From positions 4,030,001 to 4,094,000 of the forward strand of contig NZ_CP030840.1 in assembly GCF_003330725.1 (NCBI RefSeq): DNA of 64,000 nt. The letters are read 5' to 3'. The translations under genes were made by a program, and so were the position numbers. Position 1 is the first letter of the stretch. The number at the start of each line of letters is the position of its first letter. Below the pieces are notes generated by a model that did no database searches, was not told the DNA's origin, and worked only from the letters and a program-made list of their open reading frames with translations. Origin of the DNA: Acidisarcina polymorpha (lineage in GTDB: Bacteria; Acidobacteriota; Terriglobia; Terriglobales; Acidobacteriaceae). This document shows positions 1 through 6,148 of this stretch, piece by piece.

Positions 1-1
1 A

Positions 2-292
2 GCGTTCAGACGTTGCAAAGGCCACACCCGGGTGACGCTCGACGATGTGCAGTTCACGGTTTACTATCCCACCATTCGTCAGATACGCCGATCGTTTGCG
101 CCCTATTTTAGTCTCTACTCCTATACCGGAGTTGGTGTGGCTGTGCCGCCGTCATATCTTGAACGATGGGCTCGCCGGCATCCTGACGTCTTTCGCTTTC
201 TCCGCCGCCTAGAAGGACTTGTTGCGCGCCTGCCAATTCTCCGGAGCACGGGCGACCACGTGCTGCTCTGCTTCGAGAGGGTATCCGGATGA
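2..292 (+). CDS. SAM-dependent methyltransferase, C-terminal part (5' end outside window)
   Basis: The frame is open from the left edge, so about 96 C-terminal residues are visible. They look like the tail of a class I S-adenosylmethionine methyltransferase: an aromatic stretch (VYYPTIRQIRRSFAPYFSL), a VPPSYLERWARRHP segment and a closing GDHVLLCFERV strand, the arrangement seen after the Rossmann core of UbiE-type enzymes. The SAM-binding motifs lie off the edge, so the substrate cannot be judged. The stop is followed after 2 bases by the ATG of a 48-codon ORF, which in turn overlaps the radical SAM gene, so this gene appears to belong to the same transcript. The methyltransferase call is fairly secure; the link to the cluster is inferred from spacing. 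Confidence 0.6.
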   Translation, partial: AFRRCKGHTRVTLDDVQFTVYYPTIRQIRRSFAPYFSLYSYTGVGVAVPPSYLERWARRHPDVFRFLRRLEGLVARLPILRSTGDHVLLCFERVSG

Positions 293-294
293 CC

Positions 295-441
295 ATGACA
301 ATGCACATGCCTGACCAAATCTCCAGCCTTGGACGTCTCACTCCAAGTCGCCGGCATCATTCACAAAACGTATTTGCATTTGAACGGAACTATGTAAGCC
401 GAGTTTACGGAGTTAGCTGTGCCGGGCAGGTGAGCGCGTGA
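295..441 (+). CDS. Small 48-residue ORF coupled to radical SAM gene; possible precursor peptide
   Basis: This short ORF begins 2 bases after the upstream methyltransferase stop, and its TGA overlaps the GTG start of the radical SAM gene (GTGA). That is the layout expected of translationally coupled genes. The product starts MTMTMHMPDQISSL and ends YVSRVYGVSCAGQVSA. It has a basic middle (RLTPSRRHH), one Cys, and Phe, Tyr, Ser and Gly towards the C-terminus. There is no signal peptide, membrane segment or domain I recognise. Next to two radical SAM enzymes a ribosomal precursor peptide is one reading; a regulatory leader ORF or a chance ORF are others. The start is uncertain because ATG codons repeat at 295, 301 and 307. 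Function unknown. Confidence 0.35.
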   Translation: MTMHMPDQISSLGRLTPSRRHHSQNVFAFERNYVSRVYGVSCAGQVSA

Positions 442-1907
442 TCATCCTCTATCATCCGCGTGCTACCCGGCCTCGCAGCCGACGGTTGCCGCTTGCCGTC
501 CTCGCTCTTGCTGCCGCGCTCGAAGGCAAGGAGCAATACGAGATCGTCGACGGGAATCTTGAAGACGATCCGACCGCCCGCATTCTGGAACTGATCGCGC
601 GGCATAAGATTGAGCTGCTGGGGGTCTCCGCAATGCCCGGTCCGCAGATGGTGGCGGCCATGGAGACCTCTCGAGAGATTCGCCGTCTTCACCCGCACGT
701 CCCTATCTGCTGGGGCGGCTACTTCCCATCTATCTACCCGGATGCTGCGCTGAATGCACGCTACGTGGACTTTGTTGTTCGCGGACAGGGTGAGGATACT
801 CTGTTGGAACTCCTTGACGCGCTACGAGGGAATCGATCGCTTGATTCCGTAAAGGGTCTTTCCTACAAAGATATGTTCGGACTGCGCCACGACAATGGGG
901 AGCGGCCAATGAAAGGACCAGATGAGTTTCCATGGTCGCCGTTTCACCGTCTGCCCGTCGAAAAATACCTAGGTCCATCCTTCTTCGGAAAGCGCACTGC
1001 CGTTCATCATGCGAGCATTGGTTGTCCGTTCAACTGTAGCTTCTGTGGTGTTCATGCGGCTTATGGCAATAAAGAGAAGATGGAGTCCCCGGAGCGCACA
1101 GTCGCCATCTTGACTCATCTCGTCGAGTGCTACGGAGCAGACTCGGTTCAGTTCTACGACATGAATTTTTTCCTGCGCGAGGATCACGCTCGAGAGCTCT
1201 GTGATCGCATGGCGCACTTGAATCTCCGTTGGTGGTGCGAAGCCCGCGTCGACATCATGTCCCGCTACTCGGACGAAACCTTTGCGGCGATCAAGCGGGC
1301 TGGCTGCGCGATGATATTTTTCGGTGCGGAATCCGGATCCGACTGGGTTCTCGAGGAGATGCAAAAAGGCATCACTACCCAACAGACCCTCGAGATTGCC
1401 CGGCGAACCCGCCAGTTCGGCATCATTCCGGAATTCTCCTTTGTCATTGGCAATCCTAATGATCCGGATCGAGATACACGCGAGACACTGCGCTTCATTC
1501 GCAAGATTAAACGCATCAATCCGGATTCAGAGATCATCATCCAGCACTACACGCCTACACCTCAGCCACACGACGCGGGTGGCGAGATGTATGGCAAGAT
1601 TGAGGTCCCGTTTCCAGATTCACCGGCCGGATGGGCAGCCAAGGAGTGGATGAACTTTACCCTTCGCATCGACACCAATGCTCCATGGCTCAAGCGGCGC
1701 ACCAAGAAGCTCATCGACAACTTTGAGATTGTCGTTGGTTCGCGTTGGCCGACGGTTCAGGATATCCGGGCTCCGCGCTGGAGCCGCATCTTCCTGCAGG
1801 TTCTCAGTGCGTGGCGCTACGCCTTGCATTTCTACAACTTTCCTTTTGAGCTTCATCTTGCAAACCAGTTCATCTCTCTGCGAAAGCCTAAGCGGGAGAG
1901 CCTATGA
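438..1907 (+). CDS. Radical SAM enzyme with cobalamin-binding-like N-terminal domain
   Basis: The product has 489 residues. Residues 1-130 have the flavodoxin-like layout of B12-binding domains (GVSAMPG near 62, WGGYFPSIYPDAAL near 92). The canonical DxHxxG lower-ligand motif is missing; the corresponding place reads DGNLEDDP, so any cobalamin would be bound His-off. The radical SAM core has CxxxCxxC at Cys196, Cys200 and Cys203 (GCPFNCSFCGV), which should hold the [4Fe-4S] cluster that cleaves SAM. The BchE/HpnJ-like class performs methylations, cyclisations or other radical chemistry on unactivated carbons; the substrate is unknown. Start is GTG, overlapping the small upstream ORF; an AGGTGA element precedes it. 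The stop overlaps the next gene by 4 bases. Fold call secure, reaction not. Confidence 0.85.
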   Translation: MIILYHPRATRPRSRRLPLAVLALAAALEGKEQYEIVDGNLEDDPTARILELIARHKIELLGVSAMPGPQMVAAMETSREIRRLHPHVPICWGGYFPSIYPDAALNARYVDFVVRGQGEDTLLELLDALRGNRSLDSVKGLSYKDMFGLRHDNGERPMKGPDEFPWSPFHRLPVEKYLGPSFFGKRTAVHHASIGCPFNCSFCGVHAAYGNKEKMESPERTVAILTHLVECYGADSVQFYDMNFFLREDHARELCDRMAHLNLRWWCEARVDIMSRYSDETFAAIKRAGCAMIFFGAESGSDWVLEEMQKGITTQQTLEIARRTRQFGIIPEFSFVIGNPNDPDRDTRETLRFIRKIKRINPDSEIIIQHYTPTPQPHDAGGEMYGKIEVPFPDSPAGWAAKEWMNFTLRIDTNAPWLKRRTKKLIDNFEIVVGSRWPTVQDIRAPRWSRIFLQVLSAWRYALHFYNFPFELHLANQFISLRKPKRESL

Positions 1908-3868
1908 GTACAGGCGCTGGAGCGACGATGGCCTCTTCGATTCAAAGCGGGCCCGGTGTCTTCGATCGTTGGGCAGAGGTCTATGACGCGCAATCGAACC
2001 CGCTGCTGAAGCTTGAAGAGCGCTGCACCCTTCCGCTCTTGCCACCTCTCGGTGGGCAGGATGTGCTGGATGTCGGCTGCGGAACCGGGCGCTGGCTAAC
2101 CAGGCTCGAAGCACTCGGACCTGCTTCGCTCAAGGGCATCGATTGTTCGGCGACTATGCTGCAGCGCGCGCGCGAAAAAGTCCATCCGACTACAACCCTC
2201 GAGCTCAATGAGAACTCCGCGCTACCGGAAGACGATGCCTTGAGGAGCATTGTTCTGGCTTCTTTTGTGCTCAGCTATGTCGACGATCTGCAGCAATTCG
2301 CACGCGAATGCGCTCGCATCCTCCGACCTCATGGATGGCTGCTTATCTCCGACATGCATCCGGCGACAGCAGTGGAGCGAGGCTGGACACGAAGCTTTCA
2401 TGCCGATGGGGAGAGGATTGAGATCGCAGCTCATTCCCGATCCATCGATGAGATCGTTTCCGTCTTTCAGCTTCATGGCTTCGAGCTTGAAGACCTTATT
2501 GAACCACCATTTGCAGCGCCCGAGCGGGCTGTCTTTGAAGATGCAGGAAAGTTTGCGGACTTTGAAGAACTTTCTGGAGTAGCTGCGATCTATATTGCGA
2601 AGTTGCAGAAGCGTGAACCACGTCCGGCAGGGACCCCTGCTCCCGGGAGCCGCACACTCCAGCTTGTCAATGCGCGGGTCGCCACTGGTCCGCTGGGATG
2701 GAGAGATGGATCCGTTCTTATCGAGGAGGGTCGGATTGGGTCCCTCAGTCAAGGAGCCGAGGGCTCGGCGGCGACTCTCAATCTGGAGGGTTATGTCCTT
2801 CTTCCTGGCCTGATTAATGCGCACGAACATCTCGAGTTTGGATTGTTTCCCAGAGTTGGACGTCCAACAGGCCGCCCTCCATACCAGAGCTCTTCCGAGT
2901 GGGCACACGAGATCCATGAGGTCCACGCCGGCCCCATTGAACTCTACAGGCAAATTCCGAAGTCCGATCACCTATGGTGGGGAGCAATACGCAATCTTTT
3001 GTGCGGCGTCACAACGGTTTGCCATCACAATCCACTTCACGAGGAACTTGCTCAACCCGATTTTCCGGTGCGGGTTCTCTCGCGCTTCGGCTGGTCGCAC
3101 TCGCTCGCATTCGACCCGGATCTGGCTGCGAAGTTTCATGACACTCCGACGGATCACCCGTTCATCCTCCACGCGGCTGAGGGTCTTGATGAAGAAAGCA
3201 GGAAGGAAATTTACCGCCTCGACCATATGGAGGTGCTCGATGAACGCACCGTTCTCGTTCATGGGCTTGCATGCACGACCGACGAAATAGCGCTAATCAA
3301 CCAGCGAGGAACTTCGCTGGTCATCTGTCCGACGTCGAATCTCTTTCTCTTTGCAAAGACCATTCCGGCCAGCCTGCTCACTTCCATCGATCGAGTGGCG
3401 CTAGGCAGCGACTCACCAATTACCGCGGCAGGCGACCTGCTGGACGAGATTCACTATCTCTCAGCAGAAATGGGCCTCGATCCAAAGCCGATTTACAACA
3501 TGGTCACCACCGGTCCCGCTGACATCTTTCATTTGGCGGACGGCCAAGGACGGATTGTGGAATCTGGAGTGGCTGATCTCATTGCGATTCCTGACCGGGA
3601 TCACACGCCCGCCGCCGCGCTGTCGGAACTCTCCTTCCGCGACGTGCAACTGGTGCTACTCGCAGGTCGAGTTCAGATGGCGTCTGCTGAAATGTACGAG
3701 CGCTTGACCTCCAACCTCCGCTCGGGTCTGGAATTGATTGAGGTTGCGGGTCTTCAACGCTGGATTCGATCTCCCCTGCAGGACCTCATCACCGCTGCGG
3801 AGCGAGTGCTCGGCGAGAACAACCTCTGGCTTGCCGGAAGGGAAGTGCGATATGCCGGTACTGTATGA
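1904..3868 (+). CDS. Fusion protein: class I methyltransferase plus metal-dependent amidohydrolase
   Basis: A single 654-residue frame joins two enzymes. Residues 15-235 form a class I methyltransferase with motif I VLDVGCGTGRWL (54-65), an acidic GID (78-80) and an LRPHGWLLISD strand (140-150). A short Pro/Arg-rich linker (236-250) leads into an amidohydrolase of the TRZ/ATZ and SAH/MTA-deaminase type. Its metal ligands are visible: HxH at His307 and His309 (LINAHEHLEF), His423 (ILHAAEG), His453 (LVHGLA) and Asp503 (GSDSPIT). These enzymes deaminate or dechlorinate ring carbons or open cyclic amides. The start overlaps the radical SAM stop (ATGA) and the end overlaps the next gene by 17 bases, so the set is one operon. 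I know of no described protein with this domain order. Alternative start ATG at 1928. Confidence 0.85.
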   Translation: MSTGAGATMASSIQSGPGVFDRWAEVYDAQSNPLLKLEERCTLPLLPPLGGQDVLDVGCGTGRWLTRLEALGPASLKGIDCSATMLQRAREKVHPTTTLELNENSALPEDDALRSIVLASFVLSYVDDLQQFARECARILRPHGWLLISDMHPATAVERGWTRSFHADGERIEIAAHSRSIDEIVSVFQLHGFELEDLIEPPFAAPERAVFEDAGKFADFEELSGVAAIYIAKLQKREPRPAGTPAPGSRTLQLVNARVATGPLGWRDGSVLIEEGRIGSLSQGAEGSAATLNLEGYVLLPGLINAHEHLEFGLFPRVGRPTGRPPYQSSSEWAHEIHEVHAGPIELYRQIPKSDHLWWGAIRNLLCGVTTVCHHNPLHEELAQPDFPVRVLSRFGWSHSLAFDPDLAAKFHDTPTDHPFILHAAEGLDEESRKEIYRLDHMEVLDERTVLVHGLACTTDEIALINQRGTSLVICPTSNLFLFAKTIPASLLTSIDRVALGSDSPITAAGDLLDEIHYLSAEMGLDPKPIYNMVTTGPADIFHLADGQGRIVESGVADLIAIPDRDHTPAAALSELSFRDVQLVLLAGRVQMASAEMYERLTSNLRSGLELIEVAGLQRWIRSPLQDLITAAERVLGENNLWLAGREVRYAGTV

Positions 3869-4880
3869 AATTCAGCCAGCTCAATCAGCGCATCTGGAAG
3901 GATCGCGGATCACCGAGCTTCCCATCCTGCTGCTGAATATCCATAGTCAGTGCAATTGCCGCTGTGTGATGTGTGATATCTGGAAGCGAAAAGATGGCCG
4001 CGAGTTCCATGCCGCCGATCTCGAGCGCCATCGGGATTCAATCCGAAGACTAGGCGTCAGACAGATTGTGCTCACCGGTGGTGAGCCACTGCTCAATCGT
4101 GAGTTGGAGGCAATATGCACATTTTTTCGCGATCTTGGCCTTCACCTCACCTTACTCACTACCGGACTTCTGCTGCAGAAGAAAGCGGCCATCGTTGCAG
4201 CGGGCTTTGACGACATCATCATTTCGATCGACGGTCCGCCCGAGATCCATGACCGCATCCGCAATGTTTCCGGCGCTTTTAGGGTCATCCAGAAGGGTAT
4301 CCTAGCAGTGCGCGCGCTCCGCCCCGAGATGCCGATCTCGTGCCGAACTACCGTGCAGAAGCTGAACTATGCACATTTGCGAGCGACGGTCTCCGCCGCC
4401 AGGTCACTTGGGCTCAACAGTATCTCCTTCCTGGCTGCGGACGTCTCGTCGGCTGCTTTTAACCGAGAGGAGCCCTGGGCGCTGGAACGCCAGGAGGAGG
4501 TTGCGCTCAGTCGAGCCGAGCTGATGAAGCTCGAGGACGAGATCGAACTACTGATCGAGACCTACCAAGAAGACATCAAAAGCGGCTTTGTTACGGAGAG
4601 TCAGGCGAAGCTCCGGAGGATCGCAAATCGCTTTCGGGAACGGATTGACGGTTCACCGACGAAAGCCCCAATCTGCAACGCCCCATGGGTCTCTGCCGTA
4701 ATGGAGGTGGACGGGAGTGTACGCCCGTGCTTCTTTCATCCCTCAGTCGGCAATGCCCATCAACTCCCACTGGAAGAGGCGATCAACACCGATGCTGCCC
4801 TCTCTTTTCGAAGCCGCCTGAAGGTTGCCAGCAATCCAACCTGCCAGCGTTGCGTCTGCTCCCTGAACTACGCTCGATGA
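3852..4880 (+). CDS. Radical SAM protein with SPASM-like C-terminal cysteines
   Basis: The product has 342 residues from the ATG at 3852, which has a GGAAG-type ribosome-binding site and overlaps the upstream gene by 17 bases; the frame stays open further upstream but that part is unlikely to be used. The core has CxxxCxxC at Cys34, Cys38 and Cys41 (QCNCRCVMCDIW), GGEPLL at 76-81 and SIDGP at 125-129. The C-terminus carries Cys275 (ICNAPWV), Cys293 after DGSVRPC and the group Cys331/334/336 (CQRCVC), a SPASM-like layout that would hold one or two auxiliary iron-sulfur clusters. SPASM enzymes mostly modify peptides but also act on small molecules and glycosides. Substrate unknown; the coupled genes suggest all act on one product. 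Confidence 0.85.
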   Translation: MPVLYEIQPAQSAHLEGSRITELPILLLNIHSQCNCRCVMCDIWKRKDGREFHAADLERHRDSIRRLGVRQIVLTGGEPLLNRELEAICTFFRDLGLHLTLLTTGLLLQKKAAIVAAGFDDIIISIDGPPEIHDRIRNVSGAFRVIQKGILAVRALRPEMPISCRTTVQKLNYAHLRATVSAARSLGLNSISFLAADVSSAAFNREEPWALERQEEVALSRAELMKLEDEIELLIETYQEDIKSGFVTESQAKLRRIANRFRERIDGSPTKAPICNAPWVSAVMEVDGSVRPCFFHPSVGNAHQLPLEEAINTDAALSFRSRLKVASNPTCQRCVCSLNYAR

Positions 4881-5346: not shown

Positions 5347-6148
5347 TTGGCTGGTCGCCATGGCTCTACTTGGGCAAGGCCGATGACGGCCCTGGGGTTA
5401 ACTGCGGCATGCGGAATTGCGCTCAGCCACTCGATCGCGCATGGGCAGATGAAGGTGTCAGGCTCGACTGCGGCGACGTCAACCCAGAGCACGCTAAGGC
5501 CGTCTTCTCCGGGCTTCGCTGCGGATTATGGCAAGCTTCCACTTAGCTTCGAAGCTAACCATGGCCAATGCGCGCCGCAGGTCAAGCTTCTCTCCCGCGG
5601 TAGCGGCTATTCGCTTTTTCTCGCGGAGAAAGAGGCGGTGCTGGCGCTGACTAAGCCCGATCTTTCCAGCCAGCAACCGGACTTCAAGACGCAAGCGGGA
5701 AAGACCCCGCTGGCATTTGCGAAGGCCGCCAAGCCGGCAAAACCGACATGTTGCGAATGGACCTCGTGGGCGCGAACCGAAGCCTGCAGGCGAGCGGCTC
5801 AGAGTTGTTGCCGGGGACGGCAAACTACTTCATCGGCAACGACCCTGCGAAGTGGCTCTCGAAGTTACCGGTCTACGCGAAGGTTAGATATTCGGCTGTC
5901 TACCCCGGAGTCGACCTGGTTTACTACGGCAACCAACGCCAGTTGGAGTACGACTTCGTCGTCGCGCCCGGCGCCAGCCCAAAATCAGTGAAGCTCCATT
6001 TTGCCGGAGCCCAGAGGATCAGCCCAGCGGCGATTTAACCGTCCTCGTGAATGACGGACAAATTGCTTTCCATAAGCCTGTGGTCTATCAAACCTGGCGG
6101 CTAACTGGTTTATTGCGGAACCAAATGGGCGTTCGGCTTGCCTATTGA
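5347..6148 (+). pseudogene. Decayed DUF7948/SBBP-type exported protein (N-terminal part only)
   Basis: Three frames in succession give one family. Frame 1 (5347 to about 5745) has a signal-like segment (MTALGLTAACGIAL) and LPLSFEANHGQ followed by SGYSLFLAEKEAVLAL, the opening of large exported SBBP-repeat beta-propeller proteins common in Acidobacteria. Frame 2 (about 5748-6020) continues with LRMDLVGAN, TANYFIGNDPAKW and YPGVDLVYYGNQRQLEYDF. Frame 3 (about 6025-6148) continues with GDLTVLVNDGQIAFHKPVVY. So there are two frameshifts, near 5745 and 6022, and everything beyond the first about 250 residues is missing. The intact protein would be secreted and much longer. The family call comes from characteristic motifs; the exact original start is unknown. 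Confidence 0.75.

Follow-up and report, generated by a model that had tools for sequence, protein, structure and literature searches.

What is made by the block of tightly coupled genes at the left edge of a 64,000-nucleotide stretch of the Acidisarcina polymorpha genome? The stretch, here called the window, is G000:C1:4030001-4094000 of a 7.6 Mb source genome. It opens at positions 2-4880 with five genes that an initial annotation had taken for one pathway, and the coordinates, the gap and the overlaps given for them all check out. Our answer, to which we assign a probability of roughly 0.4, is that they belong to one conserved acidobacterial pathway, spread over two to three genome sites, that makes a radical-modified, methylated, phosphorylated and glycosylated unit of the cell envelope. 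The domain calls are Pfam matches above curated cut-offs, and they bear out the enzyme types first proposed, namely a cobalamin (B12) radical S-adenosylmethionine (SAM) enzyme, a methyltransferase-amidohydrolase fusion and a SPASM radical SAM enzyme. The window genes are the following.

1..292, + strand: MT1, C-terminal third of a class I SAM-dependent methyltransferase (279 amino acids; Methyltransf_12/25)
289..441, + strand: open reading frame of 50 codons from ATG 289 (48 from ATG 295), by alignment a remnant of gene X
438..1907, + strand: rD, B12-binding radical SAM enzyme (489 amino acids; PF02310 and PF04055)
1904..3868, + strand: methyltransferase-amidohydrolase fusion (654 amino acids; Methyltransf_11/25 and Amidohydro_1)
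3852..4880, + strand: rE, radical SAM/SPASM enzyme (342 amino acids, from ATG 3852; PF04055 and PF13186)

The small reading frame overlaps MT1 by 4 bp when started at ATG 289 and follows it after a 2-bp gap when started at ATG 295. The next overlaps are 4 bp (X remnant and rD), 4 bp (rD and fusion) and 17 bp (fusion and rE). The SPASM match of rE (PF13186, 36.3 bits against a cut-off of 21.5) places it among the SPASM radical SAM enzymes. The left end of the cluster was expected to lie outside the window, and extension leftwards confirmed it: a one-strand array begins about 7.6 kb further left, and the window genes are its right-hand part. In window coordinates, on the same strand, the left-hand part reads as follows.

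-7638..-5518: GT87 glycosyltransferase with a C-terminal PD40 stretch (PF09594, 106 bits against a cut-off of 25)
-5216..-3693: rA, B12-binding radical SAM enzyme
-3699..-2200: rB, B12-binding radical SAM enzyme
-2174..-1953: 73-codon open reading frame, by alignment a remnant of rC2
-1953..-544: rC, B12-binding radical SAM enzyme
-547..292: MT1, methyltransferase, whose start codon lies 547 bp left of the window edge

The array therefore holds five radical SAM enzymes, two methyltransferase domains, one amidohydrolase and one glycosyltransferase, and a sixth radical SAM enzyme and a third methyltransferase are encoded elsewhere in the genome; the two radical enzymes and two methylations counted at first were too few. 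The conserved order is (GT87)-rA-rB-[rC2]-rC-MT1-[X]-rD-MT/AH-rE, in which brackets mark genes that survive in this array only as in-frame remnants, and MT and AH are the methyltransferase and amidohydrolase parts of the fusion. The proteins rA, rB, rC, rD and rC2 all exceed the PF02310 and PF04055 cut-offs and belong to the cobalamin-binding radical SAM superfamily; those of the array carry CxxxCxxC motifs (CPFNCAYC, CPYACNYC, CPYKCRWC, CPFNCSFC). The enzymes rA and rB share 40% identity, and the paralogs rC2 and rC about 33%. The GT87 protein, above the PF09594 cut-off, falls among the polyprenol-dependent glycosyltransferases.

The conservation of this order supports a single pathway. Related loci were reached through homologues of the fusion and then, further out, through rD orthologs, and about 31 loci were readable over most of their length. 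About 26 of the 31, the window's own included, have their genes collinear on a single strand as rA-rB-rC2-rC-MT1-X-rD-MT-AH-rE, in some cases with one gene absent, and the remaining five are rearranged. Since about 25 further loci across Terriglobia show this order, the array is not a chance arrangement, and the genes are by no means rarely adjacent in relatives. Almost every readable locus has rC, rD and the MT domain, and rB, X, rC2, AH or rE is absent from some; the AH gene is missing from the array in L081, L092 and L093, where the SAM enzymes are kept. MT1 adjoins rC and rD in about 30 loci, rE orthologs at the equivalent position are 48-81% identical, and in L040 and L041 MT and AH are encoded separately. 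An rC ortholog (at least 58% identity) was found in 15/15 genomes with rD and in 0/35 without it. More distant phylum members carry the components in other orders (L094, L095, L098, L100, L103, L104). An rD ortholog was present in 63 of 399 Terriglobia genomes and in 24 of 297 genomes of a phylum sample (ten of the sample from the same family); because of this patchy distribution the locus is accessory, as had been supposed.

Purifying selection acts on all of the intact array genes that were tested. The ratios of nonsynonymous to synonymous substitution (dN/dS) are 0.02-0.07 for the four B12 enzymes (rD 0.02) and 0.09-0.21 for MT1, the fusion (0.2) and rE; they are approximate because dS is near 1 or above, and they average over a period before the deletions of rC2 and X.

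These two deletions explain the small reading frames. The 48-codon frame was at first taken for a gene of its own; it has no Pfam family match at 289..441. From ATG 289, it aligns to residues 272-305 (to 308) of X, a Zn-ribbon methyltransferase of about 330 amino acids, at about 40% identity (score 56; shuffle maximum 48, 0/5000), and it ends in VSA-stop, as does X of Edaphobacter modestus (L032). The 73-codon frame begins MTELQLTHSYHL, and rC2 of E. modestus begins MADVLLTHSYHL; its last 46 residues align, in frame, to the rC2 C-terminus (score 51; shuffle maximum 44, 0/5000). Judged by these alignments, the frames are remnants of X and rC2. Both retain the frame, the stop and the coupling, the X remnant with its ancestral stop and 4-bp couplings on both sides, so that the downstream genes would escape polar effects.

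A simple loss of rC2 and X from the strain was considered and rejected, as intact copies of X (C1:4294553-4295503) and rC2 (C1:4295573-4297063) stand side by side 264 kb from the array. With this intact pair present, rC2 and X are probably supplied in trans, and we infer that the trans copies replace the deleted genes. In trees of both proteins, they group with the copies of G346, G103 and G151, apart from the in-cluster copies of L031, L032 and L036, the window's sister clusters. The clade is supported at 98/94 in the rC2 tree, not counting G151, and at 99/99 in the X tree, where G151 is included. G346 has no in-cluster rC2 or X, and its second locus reads GT87-rE-AH-X-rC2. G103 and G151 are without rD and carry a small cassette of NTP_transf_5, an MT1-like gene, GTP cyclohydrolase II, rC2, X, AH, a UGT-type glycosyltransferase, GT87 and an HprK-like kinase.

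The enzymes are new members of known superfamilies, in a combination and with a product that appear undescribed. Among the proteins scanned, none of the radical SAM enzymes, methyltransferases or amidohydrolases reached an NCBIfam cut-off. The B12 radical SAM proteins have best NCBIfam scores of 113-163 bits each, and no array protein reaches the cut-off of a B12 radical SAM equivalog (BchE, HpnJ, HpnR, TIGR04072 and others). The BchE, HpnJ and ladderane (TIGR04072) enzymes share the B12-binding and Radical_SAM domains with the proteins here, but all five lie far below the equivalog cut-offs (360-750 bits), the best scores being 162.7 against 481 (BchE), 126.9 against 360 (TIGR04072) and 114.8 against 577.6 bits (HpnJ). 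The hopanoid cyclitol pathway modifies a glycosylated envelope lipid by means of HpnI (a glycosyltransferase), HpnK (a hydrolase) and HpnJ (a B12 radical SAM enzyme). The same three types stand together in our array, yet its proteins score only 89-115 bits against the HpnJ model, under that same cut-off. No match to a described pathway with this gene set was found in NCBIfam or in a literature search that covered few subscription journals, in agreement with the initial annotation, and no known pathway with five B12 radical SAM enzymes, three methyltransferases and a deaminase was found.

The genes nearby point towards the cell envelope. Genomes carry 1-5 copies of NTP_transf_5 (PF14907), and in 17 of 24 other cluster genomes at least one is no more than 15 kb from the cluster (0.4 expected); the single full-length GT87-PD40 homologue lies near the cluster in 7 of 14 genomes (0.1 expected). 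An HprK-like kinase is found in 15/15 cluster genomes against 7/35 without the cluster; these expectations and counts treat as independent genomes that are related by ancestry. Polysaccharide genes flank other loci (Wzy ligase, UDP-glucose dehydrogenase, GT4, flippase, sulfotransferase, epimerase). The HprK and NTP_transf_5 genes of the window genome share C1:2.030-2.039 Mb with genes for a porin, cytochrome c and a CuA-type cupredoxin, and the locus continues with SLBB exporter, Wzx, Wzy and WecG genes, an exopolysaccharide locus. A kinase and nucleotidyltransferase pair is known to phosphoglycosylate the lasso peptide pseudomycoidin (PMC8498205). The phosphorylated, glycosylated envelope unit is proposed because of the enzyme families, this precedent and the polysaccharide neighbours.

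Each chemical step of the proposal is what we infer, as follows. Cobalamin-binding radical SAM enzymes are able to methylate unreactive carbons and to form or contract rings (PMC13142503). Here rA, rB, rC, rC2 and rD would add carbon-bound methyl groups to, or close rings in, a small precursor that is probably sugar-, nucleotide- or lipid-linked, and rE would add another radical reaction. Heteroatoms would be methylated by MT1, X and the MT domain of the fusion, and the amidohydrolase would deaminate an intermediate (or SAM by-products). The HprK-like kinase would transfer phosphate to a hydroxyl group. Glycosylation would fall to NTP_transf_5 and GT87, joined in some genomes by the UGT, and the product would go to, or decorate, the cell envelope or exopolysaccharide. 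This strain would draw its kinase and NTP_transf_5 from the exopolysaccharide locus at 2.03 Mb. More tentative still is the most specific form of the proposal: a heavily C-methylated or cyclised moiety, assembled by one SPASM enzyme and as many as five cobalamin radical SAM enzymes, would be phosphoglycosylated and incorporated into a cell-surface glycan.

Several observations weigh against the envelope proposal. The kinase and NTP_transf_5 locus of the window genome lies 2 Mb from the array, and neither gene was found near the cluster in L031, L032 or L036. Because the chance expectations ignore shared ancestry, the association with neighbours could come in part from one ancestral insertion beside an exopolysaccharide locus. 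The AlphaFold models of rD and the fusion were not used (mean predicted local distance difference test score, pLDDT, 56-58, from 5-6 sequences). A pure glycan product also leaves unexplained two extra riboflavin genes near the trans rC2-X pair.

G000:C1:4297236-4297898 and 4299902-4300573 (L122 11236-11898 and 13902-14573): extra GTP cyclohydrolase II (RibA) and dihydroxybutanone phosphate (DHBP) synthase

Both extras are also present in G103 and G151 and are not intact in nine other genomes (12 tested; G040 has broken pieces). The RibA copy reaches its NCBIfam cut-off. They may feed the pathway a GTP-derived pyrimidine or supply flavin for the B12 lower ligand.

Among other explanations, the one that holds up best concerns a single enzyme and is compatible with the envelope pathway: the amidohydrolase would be no pathway step but would clear SAM by-products (S-adenosylhomocysteine, SAH, or 5'-deoxyadenosine), which we regard as possible though doubtful. 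Its residues H67, H69, H183, E186, H213 and D263 are invariant in 11 sequences, and with all metal ligands (four His and one Asp) and the HxxE Glu of deaminases kept, it is by its residues of the deaminase type. Its closest solved relatives, over a partial alignment, are amidohydrolases that include methylthioadenosine (MTA)/SAH deaminase and guanine deaminases, and it matches the 5'-deoxyadenosine deaminase model at 44.1 bits, but this is far under the cut-off of 522. The arrays of L081, L092 and L093, moreover, do without the gene despite their SAM enzymes.

A free, secreted secondary metabolite or a redox or pyrimidine-type cofactor, with the polysaccharide genes mere neighbours, is an unlikely outcome of the cluster. 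The product would be a GTP-derived pyrimidine or flavin analogue, with which the cytochrome c, CuA-type cupredoxin and porin would act. The extra riboflavin genes beside rC2-X in three genomes, the deaminase type of the amidohydrolase, and the recurrence near the cluster of cytochrome c (11 loci) and CuA-like cupredoxin (7 loci) speak for it. However, no RibA or RibB stands beside the main clusters examined, the GTP cyclohydrolase II of the G151 cassette (L124:8836-9414) is interrupted by an in-frame TAG stop, the riboflavin extras could rather serve to make flavin and thence dimethylbenzimidazole for B12, and the redox genes also occur at a cluster-free locus (G034, L126).

Less probable again is a pathway for a ribosomally synthesized and post-translationally modified peptide (RiPP), with a precursor gene elsewhere, whose peptide is modified and then phosphoglycosylated as in lasso peptides. 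Related radical SAM families act on peptides (ApyD and rSAM_ocin_1 scores), and the HprK-like kinase and nucleotidyltransferase that recur beside the cluster resemble those of pseudomycoidin and paeninodin; the lasso-pathway nucleotidyltransferase is presumably a PF14907 member. Unlike those systems, ours has neither lasso cyclase nor precursor near the cluster. A precursor peptide was rejected, as none of the short reading frames shared between loci is of the precursor type and the two small ones here are remnants; a lasso peptide was rejected too, since a search of 17 genomes found no asparagine-synthetase cyclase (PF00733) within 15 kb of the cluster. No RiPP radical SAM cut-off is reached. 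The SynChlorMet cassette (ScmA-F) has a weakly ScmC-like counterpart in the HprK-like protein and a weakly ScmE/F-like one in a SPASM enzyme, but the scores (ScmC 23-31 bits, at most 30.7, against 125; ScmE/F 50-69 against 400, with ScmE 61.9 and ScmF 50.1) exclude membership, and a precursor is lacking here. That the cluster is decaying and non-functional in this strain is the least probable reading, for although rC2 and X are deleted from the array and a decayed gene adjoins it, neither remnant has lost its frame, stop or coupling, the other array genes are intact with the low dN/dS given above, and intact rC2 and X stand elsewhere in the genome.

The decayed neighbour noted at first is indeed such a gene, because its DUF7948 match is spread over two frames.

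5347..6038, + strand: decayed, frameshifted DUF7948/SBBP-type gene (PF25778 split over two frames)

It lies outside the pathway and marks the right edge of the cluster. In L041 (8322-8990), a DUF7948/SBBP gene fragment likewise lies 3' of the cluster. A mobile island at tRNA genes was rejected, with tRNA or tmRNA in only 3/39 loci scanned; a tmRNA gene (L032:15316-15668) and a tRNA-Gln gene (L112:13822-13895) are downstream of the cluster in two genomes. A plasmid search with rD returned only distant radical SAM proteins, below 60% identity. A redox set of porin-like protein, small cytochrome c, CuA-type cupredoxin and cytochrome c stands beside HprK and NTP_transf_5 at L114:7104-9683, L038:13454-15621 and L046:4724-6933. 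No B12 riboswitch was found upstream of the array in the loci scanned. In Granulicella sp. dw_53 (L031:13074-21507), a cobalamin riboswitch and a cobalamin operon (CobU, CobB, CobT, CobS, a BluB-like nitroreductase and CobQ) follow directly after rE, the riboswitch preceding the operon and not the array. The adjacency of this operon counts in favour of the proposed pathway.

Few soil bacteria are more abundant than the acidobacteria, whose chemistry is little known. A ten-gene set found in about one sixth of the sampled Terriglobia genomes, with five B12 radical enzymes, is a large block of chemistry without an assignment. The natural losses of rB, X, rC2 and the amidohydrolase, together with the fused and separate forms of the methyltransferase and amidohydrolase, offer ready comparisons for assigning its steps, and the carriers include cultured Edaphobacter and Granulicella. 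If the envelope pathway is true, it would represent a new class of envelope modification, widespread in acidobacteria, whose modules are able to split across the genome.

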